A stretch of 64,000 nucleotides of DNA from Sphingobacterium haloxyli. Lineage in GTDB: Bacteria; Bacteroidota; Bacteroidia; Sphingobacteriales; Sphingobacteriaceae. The notes below the pieces were generated by a model. That model worked only from the letters and a program-made list of their open reading frames with translations. It ran no database searches and was not told where the DNA came from. The translations under genes were made by a program, and so were the position numbers. Within the stretch, counting starts at the first letter, position 1, and every line of letters starts with the position of its first letter. Below are positions 16,677-61,677 of the stretch, piece by piece. Location: assembly GCF_002980525.1 (NCBI RefSeq), contig NZ_PVBQ01000003.1, positions 62,001 through 126,000 of the forward strand. The letters are read 5' to 3'.

Positions 16677-18800
16677 TTAATCTTCGATAGCTTTGATCTT
16701 ACCTTTAGATTTAGCGATTACATCGTCCTGTACGTTACGAGGTGCTTCTGCATAGTGATCAAACTCCATAGTAGAAGTTGCACGGCCAGAAGTAATCGTA
16801 CGTAACTGCGTTACATAACCGAACATCTCTGAAAGCGGAACGTGTGCTTTGATAACTTGTGCGCTACCGCGTGAGTCCAAACCTTGCATTTGACCACGAC
16901 GACGGTTTAAATCGCCCATTACGTCACCCATGTTTTCTTCTGGAGTCAAGACTTCTACCTTCATGATAGGCTCCATCAAAACAGGAGAACATTTAGGTAA
17001 TGCATTACGGTATGCCATCTTAGCAGCTAATTCGAATGATAAAGAGTCAGAGTCAACCGCGTGGAACGAACCATCGATCAACCGAACCTTCATGCCCGAA
17101 AGTGGATAACCTGCTAATACACCATTGTTCATAGAGACTTCAAATCCTTTCTGTACCGAAGGGATGTATTCTTTTGGAATAGAACCACCTACGATTTCAT
17201 TGACGAACTGAAGCGGCGATTTAGTCGGGTCAAAATCTTCATCAGCAGGTGAAACCACTACTTTAATGTCTGCAAATTTACCGCGACCACCAGATTGTTT
17301 TTTGTACACTTCGCGGTGTTCTGTCGTTCCGTTGATAGACTCTTTGTAAGCTACTTGTGGAGCACCTTGGTTAACTTCCACCTTGAATTCGCGCTTTAAA
17401 CGGTCGATCAAAATGTCCAAGTGAAGCTCACCCATACCAGAGATAACGGTTTGACCTGTCTCATCATCCGATTTAACAACGAATGTAGGATCTTCTTCTG
17501 CTAGTTTTCCCAACGCAATACCTAATTTATCGACATCAGCCTGTGTTTTAGGTTCGATCGCCAAACCGATAACGGGCTCAGGGAATACCATAGACTCTAA
17601 AACGATAGGGTTCTTTTCGTCACAAAGGGTATCACCGGTTTTGATATCTTTAAAACCAACTACCGCACCGATATCACCAGCGCCGATTTTCTCAATAGGA
17701 TTTTGTTTGTTCGCGTGCATTTGGAAGATACGCGAGATACGCTCTTTGTTGCCAGAACGGGTGTTCAAAACATAAGAACCAGCATCTAATGTACCAGAGT
17801 AAGCACGAACAAAACATAGACGGCCTACGAATGGATCGGTAGCAATTTTAAATCCTAATGCAGCGAAAGGTTCTGCTTCAGAAGGTTTGCGGGAAATTTC
17901 CTCTCCGTTACGTGGGTCGGTACCTTTAACGGCTTCCACATCCAATGGCGAAGGCAATAATTCCATTACCAAATTGAGCATTGTCTGTACACCCTTGTTT
18001 TTGAAAGATGAGCCACACACCATTGGTACGATAGCATTGTCTAGTACAGCACTACGTAGAGCGTTAAGGATTTCGCGCTCCGTCAATGAATTCGGATCAT
18101 CAAAGAACTTCTCCATCAACGACTCGTCATAAGAAGCAACAGCTTCTAATAATTTCTCGCGATACTCTGCTACCTCGTCTGCCATATCGTCTGGAATAGG
18201 TACTTCGGTAAAGGTCATACCTTTATCTTCTGTGTTCCAAACAATACCGCGGTTGTTGATCAAGTCAACCACACCTTTGAAATCGTCTTCGGCACCGATT
18301 GGCAATTGCAATGCAACCGCCTCAGAACCCAACATTTCTTTTACCTGTTTTACAACTTTCAAGAAATCAGCACCGGAACGGTCCATTTTATTAACGAAAC
18401 CGATACGAGGTACTTTGTATCCATCAGCTAGACGCCAGTTTGTTTCTGACTGAGGCTCGACGCCATCAACTGCGGAAAACAAGAATACTAACCCGTCCAA
18501 TACACGTAATGACCGGTTTACCTCGACAGTAAAGTCAACGTGACCAGGGGTGTCAATAACGTTTACTTGGTACTTCTTGTCGCGGTAGTTCCAGAAGACC
18601 GTAGTTGCAGCAGAAGTAATCGTGATACCACGCTCAGCTTCTTGCGCCATCCAGTCCATCGTAGAGGCACCTTCGTGCACTTCTCCGATTTTGTGGTTAA
18701 CACCAGAGTAGAATAGAATACGCTCTGTTGTTGTTGTTTTACCGGCATCAATGTGAGCAGCGATACCGATGTTTCTTACTAAACTTAAATCTTTTGCCAT
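16677..18800 (-). CDS. fusA: Elongation factor G
   Basis: Translocation GTPase of 707 aa. The start is the ATG at 18800 ([20 protein letters not shown]); a 10-residue upstream extension in the open frame is unlike EF-G. The P-loop is AHIDAGKT (15-22). The switch and G motifs DTPGHVDF and NKMDRSG are present, and so are domain IV ([18 protein letters not shown]) and domain V to the end. It is third in the rpsL-rpsG-fusA-rpsJ operon. Confidence 0.98.
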
Positions 18801-60136: not shown

Positions 60137-60170
60137 TAATTGTAAGTAGTGTAGTAGTTTAAGGTGAGGG

Positions 60171-60206
60171 AGAGCCTCTGCAGATTTTGCAGGGGCTTTC
60201 TTTTTG
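60171..60206 (+). terminator. Terminator of the Hsp20 gene
   Basis: AGCCTCTGCA pairs with TGCAGGGGCT (one G-T pair) and is followed by a T-rich tail, 35 bases after the stop. It isolates the Hsp20 transcript from the pump unit that follows. Confidence 0.85.
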
Positions 60207-60250: not shown

Positions 60251-60258
60251 TATCTTTG
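60251..60258 (+). promoter_or_regulatory. -7 box TATCTTTG for the leader ORF and MFS pump
   Basis: A perfect TAnnTTTG. A CTG 20 bases upstream (60228-60230) resembles the -33 TTG. The leader ORF begins at 60266, eight bases after the box, so the transcript probably starts within a few bases of this ATG, giving a nearly leaderless uORF. Confidence 0.65.
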
Positions 60259-60265
60259 CTACATT

Positions 60266-60319
60266 ATGAAAATTACTTCTCTATATCGGGTATTGACTGA
60301 ACGCAACAGAATAGCGTAA
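60266..60319 (+). CDS. Candidate 17-aa regulatory leader peptide of the MFS pump
   Basis: Encodes MKITSLYRVLTERNRIA. The segment Arg13-Asn14-Arg15 matches the R/K-X-R/K pattern at which macrolide-bound ribosomes arrest. Leader segment 60287-60296 (codons 8-11) can pair, nine of ten positions with one G-U, with 60341-60350 downstream. That downstream segment can instead pair with GGCATC at 60326-60331. The two pairings exclude each other, as in attenuators. The peptide begins right after a promoter box and lies 126 bases upstream of a Mef-like pump. Function is inferred, not proven. Confidence 0.55.
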   Translation: MKITSLYRVLTERNRIA

Positions 60320-60444
60320 GCACTAGGCATCCACTATGTCTCGATAGCCGTTAAAATAAGCCGTTCCGCGCTTGTTTTATCCATATTCTCATTTTTATTT
60401 TTGATTACAAAACGTCAAAAGATTACGTTTTATACAGAAAGTTT
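60320..60444 (+). promoter_or_regulatory. Leader RNA region between the uORF and the pump, candidate attenuator
   Basis: It contains alternative hairpin arms GGCATC (60326-60331) with GATAGCC (60343-60349, one bulge), and the copy TCGATAGCCG that can pair with the leader ORF. A direct repeat AGCCGTT occurs twice at about 60346-60365. A short stem AAGC...GCTT (60358-60373) runs into GTTTTAT, but it is too weak to call a terminator. The control could therefore be translational or by mRNA stability. Confidence 0.45.
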
Positions 60445-61677
60445 ATGCAAGAGAAAGAAAACTGGAAAAAGAAATTCCTCATTATATGGATTGGGCAGTT
60501 CATATCATTGATTACGAGCTCAGCCGTGAATTTTGCTATTATTATTTGGTTGAGCATCGAACATGGCTCAGCTGAGGTGCTTGCTTATGGCGCTATTGCA
60601 GGAATGTTGCCTGCGGCGGTTATCGGTCCGTTTGCAGGAATTTACATTGACCGCTGGAACCGGAAGAAAACGATGATGTTTGCCGATGGTTTCGTAGCAC
60701 TATGCACGTTGGTCATGTCGATTAGTTTCTATCTTGGATATGAAAGTCTTATTCTAATATATGCTATGCTCGCGCTGCGTTCGGTAGGGTCGGCTTTCCA
60801 TATGCCCGCTATGCAGGCATCCGTCCCCATGATTGCACCAGCGGGTGAATTGTTACGAATCGCGGGCGTGAACCAGATGATACAATCAATATCCGCAATT
60901 GCAGGTCCGGCATTAGGAGCTTTAGCAATTACTTTGATGTCGATAGGCAATGTCTTGCTATTGGATATCGTCGGTGCCACTGTCGCTATCACGGCGTTGC
61001 TGTTTGTACATATCCCGAATCCGGAAATCCCTGAAAAGGCAAAAGCAAGTTTTGGACAGGCGTGGAACGACTTAAAATTGGGATTTAAAGCGATTTTGGA
61101 TAACAAAGGGCTGACCTGGCTTTTCGCTTTTTCTACGATCGCAACCTTTTGTATTATGCCTGTGGCTGTATTGTTCCCGTTGTTAACCTTGCAATATTTC
61201 GGTGGAGGCAAATGGGAAATGAGCATAGTCGAAATGGCTTGGGGAATCGGCATGTTGGTTGGGGGGAGCGTGTTGGGGATCTTTAAGCCCACGATTCGGA
61301 AAGTCGTGATGATCAATATGACTACCATTATTTTAGGGATAAGCTTAGCATTATCAGGTGTTATCCCAACGCATACGTTCTGGATTTTGGTGGGATTAAC
61401 AGCTGTAGGAGGCATAGTAGCAACGATTTATAACGCGAGTTTTATGACCGTATTGCAAGAAGAGGTACGTGCCGAAGTGATGGGACGTGTCTTCTCCCTT
61501 TATTTCAGTATGGCCATCATCCCCACCGTCATCGGACTGCTTGGAACCGGATGGGCAGCAGATTTCTTTGGTGTAAACAATATTTTTATTGCTTTAGGGA
61601 GCATTATTGCCCTTGTTGGCGTGTTTTCTTTCTTTAATCGCTTTGTTATGGAGTTGGGGAGAAAGGATTCGCGTTAA
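60445..61677 (+). CDS. Mef-like MFS efflux transporter
   Basis: Twelve-helix exporter of 410 aa. The N-terminal half follows macrolide-efflux Mef proteins closely: WKKKFLIIWIGQFISLITSS, loop 2-3 motif GIYIDRWNRKK, and LRSVGSAFHMPAMQASVPM resemble Mef positions from memory of that family. Family members expel macrolides or other drugs by proton antiport. The leader ORF upstream supports drug-inducible expression. It is a chromosomal gene with no mobile element near it. The actual substrate is unknown, and a non-macrolide or unrelated substrate remains possible. Confidence 0.85.
   Translation: MQEKENWKKKFLIIWIGQFISLITSSAVNFAIIIWLSIEHGSAEVLAYGAIAGMLPAAVIGPFAGIYIDRWNRKKTMMFADGFVALCTLVMSISFYLGYESLILIYAMLALRSVGSAFHMPAMQASVPMIAPAGELLRIAGVNQMIQSISAIAGPALGALAITLMSIGNVLLLDIVGATVAITALLFVHIPNPEIPEKAKASFGQAWNDLKLGFKAILDNKGLTWLFAFSTIATFCIMPVAVLFPLLTLQYFGGGKWEMSIVEMAWGIGMLVGGSVLGIFKPTIRKVVMINMTTIILGISLALSGVIPTHTFWILVGLTAVGGIVATIYNASFMTVLQEEVRAEVMGRVFSLYFSMAIIPTVIGLLGTGWAADFFGVNNIFIALGSIIALVGVFSFFNRFVMELGRKDSR

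Follow-up and report, generated by a model that had tools for sequence, protein, structure and literature searches.

A short ORF ahead of a Mef(C)-like pump gene

Near the end of the window, the whole 64,000-nt stretch of Sphingobacterium haloxyli DNA that we analysed and whose numbering is used throughout, a promoter box, a short ORF and an efflux pump gene follow one another on the plus strand:

60251–60258, plus strand: Bacteroidota-type −7 promoter box TATCTTTG (TAnnTTTG), read from the sequence
60266–60319, plus strand: leader ORF of 17 codons and a TAA stop, MKITSLYRVLTERNRIA, read from the sequence and supported by [R/K]-x-[R/W] endings at 63 of 98 pump loci
60302–60310, plus strand: predicted arrest codons Arg13-Asn14-Arg15 (CGC AAC AGA), after the +X(+) motif in excerpts of PMC6238534 and PMC8298421
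60445–61677, plus strand: gene of a 410-aa MFS efflux pump resembling Mef(C) (417.5 bits to NCBIfam Mef(C); Pfam MFS_1)

The box, the ATG at 60266, the 17-codon leader and the pump ORF are all as described in the original prediction, which had been made from the letters of this DNA. TAnnTTTG is the consensus of the Bacteroidota-type −7 promoter box; seven bases separate TATCTTTG from the leader ATG, and the pump ORF starts 125 bases past the leader stop. Because a terminator-like hairpin (60166–60204) closes the upstream hsp20 gene on its 3′ side, the leader and the pump look like a unit of their own. Between the two, no terminator-like site was scored in the window, in line with the earlier remark that no strong terminator is visible there.

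Across both strands of the 64-kb window, 13 short ORFs of 5–30 aa are preceded by a TAnnTTTG box, and this leader is the only one among them with [RK]x[RKW] near its end. Another 17-residue short ORF behind such a box lies on the minus strand at 17242–17189, its end free of an arrest motif of the [RK]x[RKW] type.

Identity and distribution of the pump

The 417.5-bit match to NCBIfam Mef(C), the best of the pump among curated models, compares with a cut-off of 870 for this exception-level model; the next NCBIfam matches were Mef(En2), Mef(A) and Mef(B). Identity to the plasmid-borne Mef(C) was 49.5% over 99% of the query. Judged by sequence comparison, the window pump is a homologue of Mef(C), not Mef(C) itself. 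The forecast of a Mef-like MFS exporter as the next gene agrees with these matches and with Pfam MFS_1, and macrolide export is its predicted function.

A search of 93 Sphingobacterium genomes placed the pump in 75 of them (83 places, E ≤ 1e-60), and one of 399 genomes of the family, which include those 93, placed it in 14 further genomes from other genera (15 places, E ≤ 1e-90), with S. gobiense as the nearest named relative (97% pump identity). Our comparison set was the upstream DNA at all 98 places, 83 in the genus and 15 in other Sphingobacteriaceae. In a phylum-wide sample of 395 genomes, only four had the pump at E ≤ 1e-90. Besides the genome of the window, these were one from another Sphingobacterium and two from other families, which group with Bacteroidales pumps on the tree and had no leader in the upstream DNA that was read.

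Conservation of the leader peptide

A short ORF ending in [R/K]-x-[R/W] precedes the pump at 63 of the 98 loci, with R-x-R in 34 and +-x-W, mostly KPW, in 29; these leaders stand at 49 of the 83 loci in the genus and at 14 of the 15 in other genera. Examples of the peptides are MKITSLYRILTVRDRIA, MKITSLYRILTIRIRIA, MKVIWLQFLLSVRYRIV, MWIAALYRIYTFRDRLVA, MRLVSTQIAFVYRDRA and MKMIDLKKALFSRDRV, and ahead of the second pump group MYTSLYTTYAYKPWVL, MSISIYTTMVAKPWLPVVTK, MNYSNTAMMAKPWNN and MLVIHYTTSAYRPWTK. The motif ending is kept in many relatives while the rest of the peptide varies. The 34 R-x-R leaders encode their first Arg by CGC (19), CGG (8), CGT (3), AGA (2) or AGG (2) and their second by AGA (21), AGG (8), CGG (2), CGC (2) or CGT (1); any of D, N, I, Y and L stands between the two. 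The motif of the 29 +-x-W leaders opens with Lys or Arg, written with five codons, and always closes with Trp.

Because the Arg codons vary synonymously, with five codons at each place, it is the leader peptide itself that is kept, the codons having been counted at 63 loci chosen for a motif already seen there. Conservation of the leader in close relatives was the original prediction's own test, and the leader is conserved in them, its R-x-R retained through synonymous codon change. In a count made without such selection, a box-preceded ORF of 12–20 codons (TAnnTTTG 3–30 nt before the ORF) with [RK]x[RKW] near its end occurred in 51 of the 98 regions versus 4 of 3920 dinucleotide shuffles, the 98 loci being related by descent and not 98 independent cases. 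When no box was required, the figures were 71 of 98 regions versus 314 of 3920 shuffles, and 9 of these 71 matches are frames that we do not count as leaders.

A TAnnTTTG box lies 3–34 nt ahead of the leader ATG at 53 of the 63 leader loci, with a gap of 3–8 nt in 36 and of 20–34 nt in 17; at the other 10, no box turned up in the 45 nt ahead of the ATG. In Bacteroidota, transcription usually starts a few bases after this box, and little use is made of Shine-Dalgarno sites. If transcription starts just after the box at these loci too, many leader ATGs would be only a few bases from the transcript 5′ end. The leader would then be nearly leaderless, as had been suggested for the window and as the gaps of 3–8 nt lead one to expect.

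Leader endings and macrolide arrest motifs

Erythromycin-dependent arrest at motifs of the kind found here is known in E. coli systems, and the R-N-R near the end of the window leader is a known macrolide arrest motif. As reported in excerpts of PMC6238534, inverse toeprinting with erythromycin gave the drug-dependent pause motifs +X(+), XP(X), +X(W) and XP(W), and MAXP(W) peptides were tested in vivo with the drug. ErmDL arrests at Arg-Leu-Arg under erythromycin or telithromycin, and its Arg8Trp change relieves telithromycin stalling (PMC8298421, in the part available). Both leader endings, R-x-R and +-x-W, are published erythromycin-dependent arrest motifs. Because ErmDL Arg8Trp relieves telithromycin stalling, we are cautious about a ketolide response in the sister class: by analogy, the +-x-W and KPW leaders may be responsive to erythromycin but insensitive to ketolides. 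The earlier idea of an arrest leader is strongly supported by the comparison, in that the leader is conserved, Arg-Asn-Arg matches the motif and diverged pumps carry +-x-W, another published one; stalling itself is predicted from the peptide.

On a tree built from the 50 pumps whose sequence was complete, the +-x-W label takes five changes to explain, and well-supported branches force three of these, with only six +-x-W rows in the sample; KAW (L125), RGW (L127, on a long branch) and the KPW clade take three separate places. The label is not significantly clustered on this tree (93 of 500 shuffles as low).

RNA structure between leader and pump

In the window, the leader RNA folds much like its shuffles (z −0.46; 62 of 200 shuffles were as stable or more so), which rules out an unusually stable RNA there. 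From leader stop to pump, the RNA was more structured than shuffles across 54 of the 63 leader loci (mean z −2.17; window −1.09), the set comprising all but L020, L047, L053, L064, L074, L080, L082, L085 and L086. Over the 70 nt directly ahead of the pump, structure is only mild: the mean z is −1.07 where the leader is R-x-R or related (35 loci), −1.27 in the KPW class (17 loci) and −0.66 where there is no leader (20 pumps), with −0.48 for the window. Four helices were traced in the window and its close relatives:

60287–60294 with 60343–60350, plus strand: long-range helix P2, 8 pairs, 87.0% of cells paired, two compensated pairs
60325–60330 with 60336–60341, plus strand: hairpin P1, 6 pairs, 96.3% of cells paired, two compensated pairs
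60353–60361 with 60370–60378, plus strand: hairpin P3, 9 pairs, 97.5% of cells paired, one compensated pair, not scored as a terminator
60409–60431, plus strand: hairpin P4, 94.2% paired over the 6 pairs tested, none of them compensated

A fifth helix included in the count consists of three pairs over the arrest codons. In nine close sequences (the window and eight close relatives; L011, of the same clade, was left out), 94.0% of the cells of the five helices pair, with five compensated pairs (P2 two, P1 two, P3 one). Between 4 and 7 of 500 shuffles reach these measures, and sliding the partners brings pairing to 35–53%. We rate this support as moderate, given the closeness of the sequences and the derivation of all helices from a single one.

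P2 joins leader codons 8–10 to 60343–60350, and P4 ends 13 nt ahead of the pump ATG. The original prediction had paired 60287–60296 with 60341–60350; 9 of the 10 positions can pair (one as G-U) and P2 within it has its two compensated pairs, but the window itself breaks one pair. The alternative partner proposed at 60326–60331 is not supported: it pairs with about 60343–60349 when the stretch under the ribosome is masked, and 60326–60330 is part of the P1 hairpin, kept in 96% of cells. When the stalled ribosome was masked, P2 was lost and P3 mostly stayed; among the folds listed, the accessibility of the pump start hardly changed and no exposure was shared. A helix at the leader start came within 5% of its shuffles at one of 33 loci with R-x-R and related leaders (L014) and is not shared by that class. 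The two-state switch that had been envisaged is not borne out by the masked folds or by the R-x-R class. Few of the loci computed stood out from shuffles in their leader-start duplexes, and RNAalifold on small groups gave little or no shared structure for groups D and E. No Rfam family matched, the only hit up to E = 5 being a fungal snoRNA at E = 4.2.

In the KPW class, the codons Y-T-T (UAUACAAC) lie at a fixed distance ahead of the motif; at 23 of 24 loci they can pair with −31 to −15 of the pump AUG, and at 12 of the 24 this leader-start helix was within 5% of its shuffles. These 24 come from 31 KPW/RPW/RAW/SPW/DPW/SPL loci, L047, L053, L064, L074, L080, L082 and L086 having been left out. 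Both sides of the helix co-vary at some KPW loci (UACAGC/GCUGUA, UAUACG/CGUAUA, UUUGCA/UGCAAG). Cognate duplexes were not set apart by energy from non-cognate ones at 25 KPW-class and related loci, where 4506 of 5000 permutations were as low in a test weakened by the likeness of the segments. We regard the modelled leader-start helix of the KPW class as likely rather than demonstrated. Translation attenuators of the ErmC type use mutually exclusive structures to bury or release the resistance gene's start; of such an arrangement the KPW class has this likely helix, whereas the R-x-R class has no shared one and masking exposed no start in the folds listed.

A putative macrolide-responsive attenuator

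What the computation gives is a leader, its conservation at the peptide level, two motif classes, structured downstream RNA and compensated pairs. On these grounds we think that 60266–60319 probably encodes a drug-sensing arrest peptide, which would control the pump by attenuation, be inducible by macrolides and act most likely through translation. As far as sequence can speak to it, the macrolide-attenuator reading of the sensor peptide is well supported; from the same material we infer the transcription start, stalling in S. haloxyli, the macrolide inducer and the translational output.

Transcription would start a few bases before the leader ATG, and the leader, at a nearly leaderless end, would be translated first. 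Once a macrolide occupies the exit tunnel, the translating ribosome would be unable to add Arg15 to a chain ending in Arg13-Asn14 and would park with codon 14 in the P site and codon 15 in the A site, covering about codons 9–18. The parked ribosome would keep the leader from folding with downstream RNA, here through P2; in the KPW sister class the blocked helix would be the one from the leader to the stretch 15–31 nt before the pump AUG. The pump-producing state would be favoured as a result, most likely by relief of a structured translation start.

Translational output is our first choice, and its main rival is transcriptional output or RNA decay, in which the same sensor would be at work and the stalled ribosome would prevent premature termination or degradation of the RNA, as happens with ermK and the mef(E)/mel genes of streptococci. 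In the stretch from leader to pump, 18 of 54 loci have a terminator-like site versus 3.65 expected, and the portion of PMC4335068 that we draw on has Mef(E)L acting by transcriptional attenuation. These sites are absent from the window, have no shared place and are rare in the KPW class, and in most loci P3, as read from the sequences, has no adjacent U-run; we hold this route to be rather unlikely. A shared intrinsic terminator is ruled out, the 18 sites not lying at a common place.

A different signal is a more doubtful proposition still: the arrest peptide could sense another drug of the tunnel or the peptidyl-transferase centre, or charged Arg or Trp tRNA, given that the macrolide inducer is deduced solely from the motif and the pump family and that the conserved codons are those of Arg or Trp. 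Each leader, however, has at most one Trp, and the Arg codons do not come in runs. The exchange of Arg and Trp at the same place fits macrolide arrest motifs (PMC6238534, in excerpt) and not a single amino acid, and the pump is homologous to a macrolide pump. That the short ORF stands behind its promoter box by chance and has no function is very improbable: although 13 short ORFs follow such boxes in the window and its leader RNA is no more stable than shuffled sequence, box, ORF and motif occur together in 51 of 98 regions versus 4 of 3920 shuffles and the Arg residues are kept through synonymous change.

Relation to known leaders

To our knowledge, the known macrolide-sensing leaders, including those in the papers cited here, come from Gram-positive bacteria, and among the open-licence PMC papers listed by our searches we saw none on leaders of Sphingobacterium or mef(C) pumps. 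The best reading is that the leader family is new and the type of mechanism, macrolide-inducible leader attenuation, already known.

The closest known arrangement is that of streptococcal mef(E)/mel, where the leader Mef(E)L (MTASMRLR) lies ahead of mef(E) and is needed for macrolide induction (PMC4335068, in the part available). It shares with the window a short leader ending in R-x-R, a Mef pump and structured RNA between them. Mef(E)L differs in having a consensus ribosome-binding site and, as its switch, a Rho-independent terminator (PMC4335068, same part), whereas the window family is nearly leaderless, lacks a shared terminator, has peptides unlike Mef(E)L beyond the motif and includes a +-x-W sister class. 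ErmDL and ErmKL, as treated in excerpts of PMC8298421 and PMC4335068, are alike in Arg-x-Arg arrest with the drug in the tunnel and in that most of the signal resides in the motif rather than in a long peptide; they control a methyltransferase and have the motif at residues 6–8, whereas the window leader precedes a pump and has it at residues 13–15 of 17. The tetQ attenuator of Bacteroides (PMC5418344, in excerpt) offers a precedent for drug-responsive translational attenuation in Bacteroidota, likened here by type of control and not by leader sequence, and differs in responding to tetracycline and controlling a ribosomal protection gene.

Leaders ahead of mobile mef(C)

On pAQU1 and on p1681-tetX, an Empedobacter plasmid (loci L114, L115 and L128), mef(C) is preceded by a GTG-start frame ending in AKPWIK. 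Upstream of the pump on Proteus plasmid pPM65-2 (L113) is a short frame ending in KPWIY. The stretch of pAQU1 from leader to early mef(C) matches 11 plasmid records. It is whole in 9; in the remaining two, from E. coli and Salmonella, the match is confined to the pump side (55% and 45%). The start codon of the plasmid leader is uncertain, and we call it a candidate leader on the strength of its reading frame. Mobile mef(C), on pAQU1 and others, resembles the window in having a homologous pump with an arrest-type frame upstream; it differs in that the ending is KPW, not R-x-R, and that mph(G) follows mef(C).

We lean towards the view that the chromosomal Mef-like pumps of the Sphingobacteriaceae are served by a macrolide-sensing, near-leaderless leader family peculiar to these bacteria, in which a +X+ ending gave way to +XW/XPW more than once and the leader helix changed as well, and that the KPW end of mobile mef(C), in 9 of 11 plasmid records, points to a Bacteroidota origin of gene and switch together. 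If true, this would give the Bacteroidota a whole family of macrolide leaders with dozens of natural variants. Such a family would amount to a natural experiment, with +X+ or +XW kept and the rest changed, in which motif preferences measured in vitro could be tested against evolution. It would also provide a lead on the origin of mobile mef(C) and on its possible regulation.

Pump loci with other leader forms

The [R/K]-x-[R/W] ending is missing from 35 of the 98 loci. Reading of their upstream DNA gave the following forms:

L058, L067 and L071: XPW endings
L045 and L060: SPL endings
L028 and L029: IP-stop
L050 and L056: FYF-stop
L024: an RDR frame without its ATG

At 25 of the 98 loci, including the diverged pump group L089–L097, the upstream DNA contained no recognisable leader.

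At L018, L023, L024, L025, L027, L028, L029, L050 and L056, the leaders appear shortened or decayed (MDIN, MNIIY, MWSIT, no ATG, IP-stop or FYF-stop) and the pumps look intact. At the shortened leaders, the switch may have been lost or another arrest signal may be used. The diverged, leaderless pumps of L089, L091–L095 and L097 (about 42–45% identity) stand behind a gene with the C-terminus KYIASCLGMTPQSLSRIRR, whose product resembles a transcription regulator; the stretch TTAACAAATGTTCACGT is common to most of these loci. This group probably has a different way of control. Genome G129 has a diverged second pump at L112; upstream of it, the ORF MSVTN, of five codons, overlaps a 17-base stretch that to the eye looks complementary along its whole length to the sequence immediately ahead of the pump ATG.
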